Source: Pseudomonadota bacterium (GTDB lineage: Bacteria > Desulfobacterota > S145-22). Taken from it: a stretch of DNA of 51,145 nucleotides. This document shows positions 32,062-38,396 of this stretch, piece after piece (position 1 is the first letter of the stretch; each line of letters opens with the position of its first letter). The stretch is from assembly GCA_015493505.1 (NCBI GenBank), contig WGDA01000168.1, positions 1-51,145 on the forward strand, given 5' to 3'. The position numbers were made by a program, and so were the translations under genes. A model generated the notes under the pieces. The model saw only the letters and a list, made by a program, of their open reading frames with translations, was not told where the DNA came from and ran no database searches.

Positions 32062-33252
32062 TTAGCTTTTGGAGTGGCCGATCAACGCCGCTTCCGCCTC
32101 GCGTTTGACGAGATCCATGACGTGCCGCAACGGCAGGTGGTGCCGCCGCGCCAGACGCGCGCAGGCGTCATATTCCGGGGCAATTCGCATTCTCCCGCCG
32201 GGCAACGCTGCCACCTTGACCGCCGCCTCTCCGAGTGTGGTTGATACCCGCTCAACGCGCCGGCTGACAATCCTCCGGGAAACCGGAATCAGGCGAACCC
32301 CCAGGGTGGAGGTTTCCTCAAGCAGGCAGGCCGAAAGGTCCTCCTGGGCTTCCGCCGGGGAAACCACCGTGATCCGCGTTCCCAGCCGCCCTTTCTTCAT
32401 CAGAACTGGATGGGAGGTGACGTCCAGGGCACCCTTTTCAAAAAGAACCTCCGTGACATGGGCCAAAACTTCTGCTGTTTCGTCGTCGATGTCCGTCACC
32501 AAAAGGGCCACTTCATCCGACAAAATGGCTTCACGCGCCTCTCCCAACAGGGCGCGCAAGATATTGGGCCGGTTTTCCGGATCCCGGTCACCGGCGCCGT
32601 AGCCCGTTTCCAGCAGGCGAAAGCGCGGAACGGGCCTTGCGGGGTCCACCCACGCGCGAAGGAGAGCCGCGCCCGTGGGGGTCACAAACTCCATCTCGTA
32701 GGGCAGGGAGACGGTTTCAAACCCCTTCAGCAACGCGAGGGTCGCGGGGGCTGGGTTGGGCAACAAACCGTGCTCGCAGGAGATCTCACCCCGCCCAAGC
32801 GGGATCGGCGACGCATACACCTGTTCAACGCCCAGAAAATCAAGGGCGGCCACCCCACCCACCACATCGGAAATGGTGTCAAGCCCGCCTACTTCATGGA
32901 AATGAACGGCCTGCGGATCAACCCCATGGATGGTGGATTCCGCCTGGGCAAGGGCTTCCAGAACCTTGAGCGCCCCTTCCCTAACAGCCGGAGGAAGCCC
33001 TGACTGTTCGATCATTCCCCGCATCTTCCGATAATCACGGGGTTCCTGGGGCGTGCTTTCGAATTCAAAGTCAACTTTCATGGCAGCAATTCCCTGTCGG
33101 GCGACCTTCCCGGCCCGTATCCCGCGAAACGGAAGGGGCAGGGCGCGCAAGGCGGCTTCAATCTCTCGGACAGGGACGCCCACGTCAATCAGGCTTCCCA
33201 GCAGCATGTCTCCGCTGATCCCGGAAAAGCAGTCAAGGTAAAGAATCTTCAT
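32062..33252 (-). CDS. larC: Nickel-pincer cofactor insertion protein LarC
   Basis: This 396-residue protein reads through as one continuous frame. LarC inserts nickel into the pyridinium-type cofactor made by LarB and LarE, with CTP. Recognised features are L-D-C-F-S-G-I-S-G-D-M at the start, V-H-F-H-E-V-G (about 115) and E-F-V-T-P-T-G-A-A-L-L (about 188-198). In Lactobacillus the protein is made by a frameshift between larC1 and larC2; here no shift is needed. The start overlaps the larB stop by ATGA. The racemase larA and the sulfur-transfer gene larE are not in the window. Confidence 0.93.
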   Translation of the reverse strand: MKILYLDCFSGISGDMLLGSLIDVGVPVREIEAALRALPLPFRGIRAGKVARQGIAAMKVDFEFESTPQEPRDYRKMRGMIEQSGLPPAVREGALKVLEALAQAESTIHGVDPQAVHFHEVGGLDTISDVVGGVAALDFLGVEQVYASPIPLGRGEISCEHGLLPNPAPATLALLKGFETVSLPYEMEFVTPTGAALLRAWVDPARPVPRFRLLETGYGAGDRDPENRPNILRALLGEAREAILSDEVALLVTDIDDETAEVLAHVTEVLFEKGALDVTSHPVLMKKGRLGTRITVVSPAEAQEDLSACLLEETSTLGVRLIPVSRRIVSRRVERVSTTLGEAAVKVAALPGGRMRIAPEYDACARLARRHHLPLRHVMDLVKREAEAALIGHSKS

Positions 33253-34010
33253 GGAGCAATCAGGGCGTGGTTGATCAGGCTTGCCGCGTAGCCGGCGCCA
33301 AACCCGTTATCGATATTGACCACGGTCACCCCGGGCACGCAGGAATTGAGCATCGCCATGAGGGCCGCCAGCCCCTTGAACCCCGCCCCGTACCCAACGC
33401 TGGTGGGGACCGCGATAACAGGCCTGGAAACCAGGCCGCCCACCACGCTGGGCAGAGCACCCTCCATCCCCGCCACCACCACAAGCACATTGGCGGAAAA
33501 GAGGGTCTCTTTTTTAGAGAAGAGCCGGTGCAAACCGGAAATCCCCACGTCAAAAAGGGTTTCCACCCGGTTGCCCATCATTTCAGCTGTGATCACCGCC
33601 TCCCGCGCGACGGGCACGTCCGAGGTTCCGGCACTGATAACCAGGATGGTTCCGAGCCCCGTCAGCTCTACTTCGTGCTGTATCAGGACAAGAGTCCGGG
33701 ATATGGGGTCATACGTGCTCTTTGGGAAATAATCCCGCACGGTGGAGGCCTTTTTCTCGCTCAGACGCGTAACCAGGATGTTGCTGCCCGCCTCTTTCAT
33801 CCTCTCCATGATCGCCACGATCTGCGTGACGTCCTTGGATTCCCCGTATATAACTTCCGGAAATCCCTGCCGGATAGCACGATGATGGTCAATCATGGCG
33901 TATTCGATTTCTTCAAAGGGCAGGCGTTTCAAGCGCTCATAGGCCTCTTCAGGGCTCAGGGCCCCTTCACGCACTTGCGACAAGATTTCTTTGATACTGT
34001 CAGGTGTCAT
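33249..34010 (-). CDS. larB: Pyridinium-3,5-biscarboxylic acid mononucleotide synthase LarB
   Basis: This 253-residue protein is related to the PurE carboxylase fold. LarB carboxylates and hydrolyses nicotinic acid adenine dinucleotide in the first step of nickel-pincer cofactor synthesis. The N-terminal part has R-E-G-A-L-S-P-E-E-A-Y-E-R-L and H-H-R-A-I-R-Q-G-F-P-E-V. The PurE-like part has I-S-A-G-T-S-D-V-P-V-A-R-E-A and P-T-S-V-G-Y-G-A. It is translated with larC and lies 68 bases after archease, in the same direction. Confidence 0.93.
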   Translation of the reverse strand: MTPDSIKEILSQVREGALSPEEAYERLKRLPFEEIEYAMIDHHRAIRQGFPEVIYGESKDVTQIVAIMERMKEAGSNILVTRLSEKKASTVRDYFPKSTYDPISRTLVLIQHEVELTGLGTILVISAGTSDVPVAREAVITAEMMGNRVETLFDVGISGLHRLFSKKETLFSANVLVVVAGMEGALPSVVGGLVSRPVIAVPTSVGYGAGFKGLAALMAMLNSCVPGVTVVNIDNGFGAGYAASLINHALIAP

Positions 34011-34023
34011 AATGTTGGCTTAA

Positions 34024-34052
34024 ATCTTAAAGTCCTTCGGGCAAAAAAGCAA
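34024..34052 (-). promoter_or_regulatory. Weak promoter candidate for larBC
   Basis: On the minus strand TTGCTT (34047-34052), a 17-base spacer and TAAGAT (34024-34029), 13 bases before the larB ATG. Each box matches the consensus only partly. Confidence 0.3.
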
Positions 34053-34078
34053 GAAAAAAAAAGATAAAGTCGCCACTC

Positions 34079-34486
34079 TCAAACATCAAATGTGACCACG
34101 GCCCGCCAGTCTTTCCCTTTCTGTTCCACCAACAGGGCGTGGTAGGTCACTCCCTTGACCTCCAGCTGGCAGGTGTGGCGCGCCGGGTTAAACGGTTCCC
34201 CCCACAGGGCTCCCTTCAGGCGTGTCTGGCTGGCTTCTTGAACCTCCAACCGGGCAGGAACCCATTCCTCTCCGTAGAAATATCTCAGCGTGGTGCGTCC
34301 CAGAGAGACGATCAGGTCTTCCGGCGCCGGCTCCTCCACGTGAACCTCCCGCCGGCCCAGCTCCCGTATGTCGCCCTGTACCAGAAGCTCACGCAATCCC
34401 TTCACCAACTCAACAAACACCGCCTCGTACGTGCCGCACGTGATTTCCATCTGGACATCCGCGGTATGGTCGAGCCAACGAATCAT
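34079..34486 (-). CDS. Archease-family protein
   Basis: This 135-residue protein has the archease pattern. H-T-A-D-V lies near the start (about 7-11), a conserved G-T-Y-x-x-V-F helix follows, and V-T-F-D-V closes the protein. Archease helps the RNA ligase RtcB guanylylate and turn over, and is involved in tRNA or broken-RNA joining. No rtcB is present in the window, so the partner must be elsewhere or the protein has another role. It overlaps the zinc-ribbon protein gene by four bases (ATGA). Confidence 0.9.
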   Translation of the reverse strand: MIRWLDHTADVQMEITCGTYEAVFVELVKGLRELLVQGDIRELGRREVHVEEPAPEDLIVSLGRTTLRYFYGEEWVPARLEVQEASQTRLKGALWGEPFNPARHTCQLEVKGVTYHALLVEQKGKDWRAVVTFDV

Positions 34487-35208
34487 GCGGCCGCTTCATC
34501 AGGTTTCTCAGGGGGCACGAGAATTCGATTGCAGTGCGGACAAAGGATAATCTTTTCGCATTTTTGAATCTGATTAAAGAGCTGGGGCGGGATATTCATG
34601 TGACACCCCTGGCAGATTTCATTTTTCGCGTAAACCACCGCGACACCCGCGCGCTTTTCCAGAAGCGTGTGATAGCGTTTCAACAGGTCAGGCGGAATCT
34701 TCTTTTCCAGGTCATCCCGCCGCGCCTTCAGTCCTTTCAAATCATCGGGGAGATGATTAAGTTGTTCCGTCAGCTCCTTTTTCCTGGCCTCCAGTTTCTC
34801 TTTCTCCTTCAGGTATGCGGCTTCCTTCTCTTTCAAGGCTTCCTGTAAGGTGTCCACCTTGTCCAGACGCTCAATAATCTCCAGCTCGTACTGATCCATC
34901 TTTTCCTTTAAATGGTCTATCTCGGACAAAAAGGCCTGGTATTCCTTATTGGTTTTAACCTCCGGCAACCGTCCCTGTATCTTTTTTATCTGGTCCGCCG
35001 CCGCTTCCAGGTCCCTCTCCCGCTGCCGTCGTTCCTTTTCCAGCGTTTCAATCTTTTCGACTTCCCGCTGGAAGGCCTCCGCACGCTCATCGATTTCCCG
35101 CTGAATTTTTTCAATCTCTTTCGGAAACGACGTCTCCTGTCGATCATGCAGGCGAATTTTTGAATCTAATTCCTGCAATCTGATAAGCATCTGCAACTGT
35201 TCTTTCAA
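34483..35208 (-). CDS. Coiled-coil protein with C4 zinc ribbon
   Basis: This 241-residue protein is almost wholly coiled coil from about 5 to 180 (heptads rich in Glu, Lys and Leu). It ends in a zinc ribbon with C-Q-G-C-H-M-N-I-P (about 196-204) and C-P-H-C-N-R-I-L (about 219-226). It is a member of the widespread C4-type zinc-ribbon family (formerly DUF164) whose function is unsettled, with proposed nucleic-acid binding. It is coupled by four-base overlaps to the Nif3-like gene before it and archease after it, an arrangement seen in deltaproteobacteria. Confidence 0.9.
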   Translation of the reverse strand: MKEQLQMLIRLQELDSKIRLHDRQETSFPKEIEKIQREIDERAEAFQREVEKIETLEKERRQRERDLEAAADQIKKIQGRLPEVKTNKEYQAFLSEIDHLKEKMDQYELEIIERLDKVDTLQEALKEKEAAYLKEKEKLEARKKELTEQLNHLPDDLKGLKARRDDLEKKIPPDLLKRYHTLLEKRAGVAVVYAKNEICQGCHMNIPPQLFNQIQKCEKIILCPHCNRILVPPEKPDEAAA

Positions 35209-36329
35209 TGATTCCCTCCCCTGTGGAAAAAAGTAAAAGGATCCGCCTCAACCTGGCTTTTGAACACCTTCACACGCGGGGACACCCCCATCTGTTCAAG
35301 CCAGGAGGACATAAGGTCAACAAAAATTCTTTCCATCGCGAAATGCCCCACATCCACCACTGTCAAACGCAGACCTTGGGCGTCTCGCGCTTCATGATAT
35401 TTTACGTCTCCCGTCAGGTAGACATCGGCCACAGCGGCGGCCTGGGGAATGAACGAGGCGCCGCTCCCGGTGCAGAGAGCGACCCGTGAAACCCGGCCAA
35501 CCGCCTCGCCGACGATGCGATAATCGGAAACGTTAAAGGCCCTTTCCACCCTCGTCAGGAATTCTTCCCATAAAAGCGGCGGGGCAAGGACCCCTGTCCG
35601 CAAAAATCCAGTACCGGAAGAGACCGACGCCAGGGGATAGATATCATAAGCGGGAACCTCGTAAGGATGCGCCTCCTTTAGGGCGGTGATACCCTGGAGC
35701 AAGGTTTCGCGGGGAAACACCACCTCAATCCGTGACTCATTCACACGGTTCAGAACCCCTTTCTCTCCCACAACGGGAGACGTGCCTTCCCCTGGGAAGA
35801 AGGTCCCCTCGCCGGGGCAACTGAACGAGCATCCTTCATAATTCTCAATCCGCCCGCCACCTACACCAAAAAGCGCCTTCAACACGGCTTCGCGGGATTC
35901 CGGGGGAACAAAGGTGACCAGTTTATAAGTCTCATCCCGCGATATCCGGGGATGTAACGTGGAAACCTGGTACAGGCCCAAAAGCCCGGCGGCATAATCG
36001 TTCATCCCCCCTTCCGCCTTGTCCAGATTGGTATGCAGGCTGTATACCGCCACGCCCCGCGTGAGGCAGGCCTTGAGCAGCCTCCCCAGGCCGTTTCGGG
36101 TATCCAGGGATTTCAGCGGAGAAAAGAGCGGGGGATGATGCGAAACAATCAGGTTGGCTCCCTTGCGGACCGCCTCATCGAGGACAGCCTCCGTGACGTC
36201 CAGGCTAAGAAGGATCGCCCCGCACGTCTCGTCGGGATCCCCCACCTGCAGCCCGGGATTGTCCCAGGGTTCCGCCAAAGCCATGGGCGCCCGTCCCTCC
36301 AGGGCTTCCATGATTTTCCGAATCTTCAT
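35205..36329 (-). CDS. Nif3-like dinuclear metal-centre protein
   Basis: This 374-residue protein is the long two-part Nif3 form. The outer halves form the Nif3 fold with H-H-P-P-L-F (about 64-69), H-T-N-L-D (about 98-102) and late ligands in V-D-V-G-H-F-A-M-E (about 324-332). A PII-like insert lies between (about 130-240). It forms metal-bound hexamers; proposed roles include GTP cyclohydrolase I type 2-like and metal-chaperone functions, none proven. Its start has GGAAG four bases before ATG and lies only about 20 bases after a strong terminator-like hairpin. It leads the run to archease and perhaps larBC. Confidence 0.92.
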   Translation of the reverse strand: MKIRKIMEALEGRAPMALAEPWDNPGLQVGDPDETCGAILLSLDVTEAVLDEAVRKGANLIVSHHPPLFSPLKSLDTRNGLGRLLKACLTRGVAVYSLHTNLDKAEGGMNDYAAGLLGLYQVSTLHPRISRDETYKLVTFVPPESREAVLKALFGVGGGRIENYEGCSFSCPGEGTFFPGEGTSPVVGEKGVLNRVNESRIEVVFPRETLLQGITALKEAHPYEVPAYDIYPLASVSSGTGFLRTGVLAPPLLWEEFLTRVERAFNVSDYRIVGEAVGRVSRVALCTGSGASFIPQAAAVADVYLTGDVKYHEARDAQGLRLTVVDVGHFAMERIFVDLMSSWLEQMGVSPRVKVFKSQVEADPFTFFHRGGNH

Positions 36330-36348
36330 GCGCGCTTCCGGGCAAAAT

Positions 36349-36376
36349 AAAAAGCCGAGATTTTTCCCGGCTTTTT
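36349..36376 (-). terminator. Intrinsic terminator or attenuator before the nif3-like gene
   Basis: On the minus strand a stem with arms AAAAAGCCGGG and C-T-C-G-G-C-T-T-T-T-T is followed by TTTTTATTTTG. It lies downstream of the tRNA and immediately before the nif3-like start. It may stop tRNA transcripts or regulate read-through into the operon. Confidence 0.8.
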
Positions 36377-36384
36377 ATCAATTC

Positions 36385-36416
36385 GGTTCACCCGGATCTC
36401 TTCCGGGCCTTGAACC
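36385..36416 (-). promoter_or_regulatory. Stem-loop in the leader between tRNA and nif3-like gene
   Basis: GGTTCA + CCCGGA pairs with TCCGGG + TGAACC, giving a 12-base-pair stem with a three-base bulge and a five-base loop. It lies just before the terminator. Its CCCGG block can also pair with the terminator arm CCGGG, which would make it an anti-terminator partner. Confidence 0.6.
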
Positions 36417-36493
36417 ACTTCCTGACGCGAACATTCACCGTTTAAGGGTCTGCGCTGATTTCCCGTCATGTCTCCGTCGCTATCGCGTTTTCA

Positions 36494-36569
36494 TGGTGGG
36501 CCCACCAGGGATCGAACCTGGGACCTACCGGTTATGAGCCGGTGGCTCTACCAATTGAGCTATGGGCCC
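36494..36569 (-). tRNA. tRNA with CAU anticodon (elongator Met or Ile2)
   Basis: The 76-base cloverleaf is complete. Acceptor stem GGGCCCA pairs with TGGGCCC, the D-arm is GCTC/GAGC, and the anticodon loop is CTCATAA on a stem ACCGG/CCGGT. The T-arm is CCAGG/CCTGG, and the terminal CCA is encoded. The stem lacks the three G:C pairs of the initiator. Whether it is elongator Met or lysidine-modified Ile2 cannot be settled by eye. Confidence 0.92.
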
Positions 36570-36579
36570 TTTTACTGTT

Positions 36580-36608
36580 ACCCTAAAGCTTATTTCGCCC
36601 TTCGTCAA
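36580..36608 (-). promoter_or_regulatory. Promoter of tRNA(CAU)
   Basis: On the minus strand TTGACG (36603-36608), a 17-base spacer and TAGGGT (36580-36585) lie ten bases before the tRNA 5' end, in the gap after rpoD. Confidence 0.6.
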
Positions 36609-36640: not shown

Positions 36641-38377
<1,737 letters not shown>

Positions 38378-38396
38378 CGGCACCCTCACCTCGATC

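Follow-up and report, generated by a model that had tools for sequence, protein, structure and literature searches.

The locus raises the question of whether a protein operon that starts directly behind a terminator-like hairpin has a promoter of its own, or is transcribed by polymerases that come from an upstream tRNA gene and pass the hairpin. The window, i.e. the whole stretch of 51,145 nucleotides that was analysed, contains on its minus strand, in this order, rpoD, the tRNA promoter, a tRNA(CAU) gene, a 164-nt spacer, nif3, a zinc-ribbon gene, archease, and larB-like and larC-like genes. The upstream neighbour rpoD (36641–38389, an ORF with predicted start) encodes the primary sigma factor, as recognised by its Pfam sigma-70 domains, and no terminator-like site was found between rpoD and the tRNA in the window. 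The first gene of the downstream operon, nif3 (DUF34; PF01784, 3.8e-74), is located at 35205–36329 with its ATG at 36329. Its end overlaps with the gene of a CT398-type coiled-coil/C4 zinc-ribbon protein similar to COG1579 (34483–35208; PF02591, PF24481), which is followed by archease (34079–34486; PF01951), the larB-like gene with an AIRC domain (33249–34010; PF00731) and the gene of a larC-like nickel insertion protein (32062–33252; PF01969), and the nif3 operon (32062–36329) thereby takes in archease as well as larB/larC, which are nickel-cofactor genes.

The tRNA with the anticodon CAU (36494–36569, minus strand; ARAGORN, and Rfam at 71.5 bits) was labelled tRNA-Met by ARAGORN and has the acceptor stem GGGCCCA. 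Among the 47 tRNAs found in its own genome, CAU is the anticodon of three only. Because one of the other two (L237) has initiator features and the second (L231) resembles elongator tRNA-Met, and since no UAU anticodon was seen among the tRNAs read from this genome, the tRNA of the window is most likely tRNA-Ile2, the lysidine tRNA, an identity reached by exclusion among the CAU tRNAs. Such a tRNA-Ile2(CAU) would read AUA once it is modified with lysidine. The promoter of this tRNA (36580–36608, minus strand) consists of TTGACG (36608–36603), a 17-nt spacer and the −10-like TAGGGT (36585–36580), and its pattern TTGACGAA...TTAGGNT(A) is kept in five genomes of the window's family (f1) and in G002. 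When the 70 nt before the tRNA were scored for sigma-70 promoters against shuffles at 118 loci, the mean z was 3.0, and 77% of the loci scored at p ≤ 0.05. The conservation and this enrichment agree with the claim that the tRNA has its own promoter. A near-identical trailer and terminator, GATTTCAAGGGGTTAG...CTGACC(CC)TTTT, was noticed in the same genome after five tRNAs, namely Arg-TCT, Thr-CGT, Lys-CTT, Arg-ACG and initiator Met (L217, L220, L222, L233 and L237), and the terminator after tRNA-Ile2 differs from it.

The upstream DNA of nif3 was taken from 122 loci of the phylum, the relatives being chosen from the better-scoring DUF34 matches and the nif3 start codons picked by rule; L096 was too short, which left 121 informative loci. 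A same-strand tRNA(CAU) is found directly upstream of nif3 in 118 of these 121, which are related by descent and do not count as independent events, and the three exceptions have tRNA-Pro (L060) or no tRNA at all (L032 and L112). Among named relatives, the layout recurs in Geobacter sp. GAC1 (L145), Desulfuromonas sp. BM302 (L139) and Desulfuromusa sp. AUK122 (L174). Upstream of the tRNA, rpoD is seen in only 58 of the 118 loci (contig ends may conceal some), and the tRNA–nif3 pair is therefore kept independently of rpoD. Judged from these loci, the tRNA(CAU)–terminator–nif3 arrangement is far more than local and appears to span most of the phylum. Outside the phylum, tRNA(CAU) adjoins nif3 in a Halanaerobiaceae MAG (L177), with a spacer of ~214 nt and a good Shine-Dalgarno sequence at nif3, and a cluster of tRNA-Asn and tRNA-Met(CAU) occurs ~0.8–1.5 kb upstream of nif3 in five Bacillota loci (L134, L137, L141, L205 and L210), possibly an ancestral link. 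In three relatives (L007:318–685, L012:1–284 and L017:1–152), RNase P RNA (rnpB) was noticed at most ~1.5 kb downstream of the matched nif3 region.

The hairpin AAAAAGCCGGGA-AAAA-TCTCGGCTTTTT (36349–36376, minus strand) has a core stem of −14.1 kcal/mol and is followed by the U-tract TTTTTATTTT (36344–36353), which starts ~20 nt before the ATG of nif3 at 36329, as in the original prediction of a strong terminator-like hairpin at this place. The 14-nt gap between the tract and the ATG (36330–36343) has no convincing Shine-Dalgarno sequence and no room for a promoter. The leader as a whole (167 nt) reaches −61.3 kcal/mol when folded, compared with −45.7 ± 3.7 in shuffles (z = −4.2), and none of 200 shuffles did as well. 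A G+C-rich hairpin that runs directly into a U-tract (36376–36344) is the structure of an intrinsic, rho-independent terminator. The terminators in relatives were called as hairpins with a folding energy of ≤−8 kcal/mol and a U-tract behind them, and 93 of 118 spacers have one, compared with 5.6% of dinucleotide shuffles (spacer ends are one base off for the L031–L130 anchors, both in the table and in the shuffles), while about one in ten of the long spacers scored no terminator. In 25 hairpins compared across families, 9 of 10 pairs had compensatory changes in both arms, and pairing was possible in 93.9% of the cells, the latter value being biased upward because these hairpins were preselected by folding. 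These comparisons argue for an intrinsic terminator that has been conserved.

The position of the terminator was found to be set from the side of nif3. From the start of the U-tract to the start codon of nif3 there are 22 nt at the median and ≤40 nt in 69 of 93 loci (33 families), whereas the hairpin lies farther from the tRNA and at less constant distances (median 114 nt; interquartile range 50 versus 26 for hairpin to nif3). The tight spacing is not universal, as it exceeds 40 nt in 13 families. A Shine-Dalgarno-like motif precedes nif3 in 16 of 69 loci where the hairpin is close as against 12 of 24 where it is distant. Two of the four genomes of f17 (L037 and L045) carry insertions of ~90 and ~200 nt exactly between terminator and nif3, and these insertions are alike at their ends. 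As a control, 52 other tRNA units were taken from nine genomes, two copies of the nif3 locus itself among them; they gave 26 terminators, mostly 32–47 nt past the tRNA, and the next co-directional ORF was usually distant, unlike at the nif3 locus. When 162 long ORFs in sequence of the window's own genome were scanned, a set that took in both strands and spurious ORFs, a terminator 5–30 nt ahead of the start codon was found essentially at nif3 alone.

A terminator that is placed relative to nif3 and not to the tRNA, and that sits in the nif3 leader, is also what would be expected of a regulated attenuator, in which read-through of the hairpin would vary with a signal such as a protein, a metal, the state of the tRNA or the level of NusA/NusG, and would thereby switch nif3. 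This reading gains from the stem core G-T/C-G-C/T, which was seen in 36 of 43 families but in 2 of 18 other tRNA terminators, and from the uniqueness of the hairpin where a specific pattern was searched: AGAGTGCA..TGCACTCTTT was found just once per genome in 15 genomes from six families, as was GCCGGG..CTCGGCTTTT in five genomes of the window's family, its own genome included, while a looser GTGCA pattern gave a few additional places in some genomes. It also gains from a second stem that the window and some families have upstream of the hairpin. In the window, this bulged stem (36385–36416, minus strand), drawn from the sequence and from folds of L002–L005, pairs GGTTCA with TGAACC at its base and CCCGGA with TCCGGG at its apex. 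Four of five family genomes retain the basal GGTTC/GAACC stem, with a single compensatory change, from A-T to G-C, in L003. The apical stem is present in the window only, and the four other genomes of the family whose spacer could be read lack it. As MAFFT misaligned the 36416–36385 stem in L003, covariation there was read by hand and not counted. The bulged stem is weakly conserved.

The points that stand against regulation come from the same leader. The CCCGG block was proposed as an anti-terminator that pairs with the terminator arm, and this claim could not be sustained, the block being confined to the window and the pairing of upstream RNA with the arm being no better than in shuffles in all five family genomes (p = 0.17 in the window and 0.07–0.72 in the four relatives). 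Neither a conserved anti-terminator nor a described aptamer, the features of a riboswitch or regulated attenuator, was found; Rfam matched only the tRNA in the window and the loci of relatives, apart from rnpB elsewhere in three loci, and at a relaxed E-value it returned nothing but weak, implausible matches. Furthermore, the spacers of different families could not be aligned with each other, and the window's own family has another stem sequence (GCCGGG). A response to metals finds no support, as nothing found indicates metals and the gene content of the operon is all that would point to them. Regulated attenuation is therefore considered unlikely. A quite doubtful proposal is that the hairpin serves across the phylum as a conserved, locus-specific regulatory element and, through recognition by a factor (perhaps a transcription factor or DUF34 itself), ties the nif3 operon to tRNA-Ile2 synthesis by controlled read-through.

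Some other features of the spacer were looked at and dropped. CsrA-like GGATG sites numbered 15 overall against 9.3 ± 2.8 expected and were absent in the window's family. In Geobacter-like families (L007, L035, L044, L049 and L054 of f25; L031/L036 of f47; L042 of f104), the tRNA is followed by a small GGATG-loop hairpin similar to a CsrA site, with no enrichment across the phylum. An apparently conserved peptide in the spacer of f83 and f100 (ATGAGT...) was, by eye, a hairpin ATGAG/CTCAT with a variable loop, and the terminator arm AGCCGG could pair, by eye, with the anticodon stem of the tRNA in the window's family only.

If the hairpin were a plain tRNA terminator that just ends the tRNA transcript, nif3 would have an unrecognised promoter of its own and its closeness to the hairpin would result from genome compaction. 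Some 3′ end is required for the tRNA, and the hairpin is 60–200 nt from nif3 in families such as f33, f70, f71 and f90, both of which would fit. The search for another promoter argues against it: the sigma-70 score, a simple one that other sigma types or very weak promoters would escape, was at chance in about 60 tRNA-to-hairpin spacers (z −0.07; 5% significant) and in the gaps between hairpin and gene where these are long (z −0.5; 0 of 15 significant). In the close cases, there are <30 nt after an 8-nt tract in 68 of 69. A promoter that overlaps the U-tract and gives a leaderless mRNA was also considered and rejected, as TANNNT is absent between hairpin and ATG in 51 of 69 close cases. A generic pattern scanner was silent on promoters and terminators at this locus, which carries little weight since the scanner also missed the conserved tRNA promoter and the obvious terminator. 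In addition, at six loci of five families (f28, f29, f66, f84 and f101), nif3 starts 10–18 nt past the tRNA with no terminator, which leaves no room for a promoter, and co-transcription is therefore hard to avoid in those families. The plain terminator is thus an improbable reading. The remaining reading, an independent small RNA that is encoded by the spacer and stops at the hairpin, nif3 following it by chance, would suit the spacers of 110–340 nt, which in most relatives contain additional stems and a terminator, but is highly improbable given that the spacer outside the hairpin is not conserved beyond close families, has neither promoter signal nor Rfam match, and in f65 shrinks to just a few nucleotides between tRNA and hairpin.

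Because no promoter signal was found between the tRNA and the hairpin or between the hairpin and the gene, nif3 is probably reached only past the hairpin, in line with what was predicted on both points. The observations that bear on a shared promoter are the linkage in 118 of 121 loci, the promoter signal before the tRNA alone and the five families with 10–18 nt, and together with the terminator and its tight spacing to nif3 they lend the comparative support to the reading that we prefer. In this reading, tRNA-Ile2(CAU) and nif3 probably form one transcription unit with an internal terminator and a low, fixed read-through into nif3. The tRNA promoter would drive this unit, along with any transcription arriving from rpoD. 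Most polymerases would halt at the hairpin and give a short precursor from which the tRNA would be cut, and a minority would pass it and give a low-abundance nif3–zinc-ribbon–archease–lar mRNA. The terminator, which is retained right next to the nif3 coding sequence, would fix the ratio of stable RNA to mRNA. We infer co-transcription itself, the read-through fraction and a constant rather than regulated ratio from these comparisons.

The E. coli T1 between rpsU and dnaG is a conserved rho-independent internal terminator that partly controls the abundance of the downstream (rpoD) transcript, as summarised in PMC7863352 (citing Versalovic, 1993). The nif3 terminator, likewise conserved, rho-independent and placed within a probable operon directly ahead of a low-need gene, is on the best reading a T1-like element with low fixed read-through. 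It differs from T1 as described there in that it divides a tRNA from nif3 in this phylum, has the start codon only ~20 nt from the U-tract and is followed by no further promoter signal. A tRNA and a protein gene are also under one promoter in the tRNA-tufB operon of enterobacteria (thrU tyrU glyT thrT tufB; PMC6134099), which differs in having four tRNAs and a highly expressed product, and the part of that source on the operon describes no comparable terminator before the protein gene. The rpoD–trmK–nif3 cluster of Bacillota, where COG0568, COG0358 and COG2384 are among the top neighbours of DUF34 (PMC8469502), similarly places nif3 near a sigma-factor gene, whereas in this phylum tRNA-Ile2 directly precedes nif3 and the pair persists without rpoD. 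Riboswitches and leader attenuators likewise carry their terminator hairpin in the 5′ leader near the start codon, but the nif3 leader has no conserved aptamer, conserved anti-terminator or Rfam match. No description of the tRNA-Ile2–terminator–nif3 arrangement was found in the literature searched, which is not proof of its absence.

DUF34/NIF3 proteins occur in all domains of life, and their function is unsettled. They have been argued to be metal chaperones or insertases (PMC8469502). The natural series of loci, in which the terminator is absent, abutting or distant, suits the study of how internal terminators evolve. A deeply conserved transcriptional tie between nif3 and tRNA-Ile2, with a terminator that would hold expression low, may thus provide a new and testable clue to the dosage and context of DUF34/NIF3.
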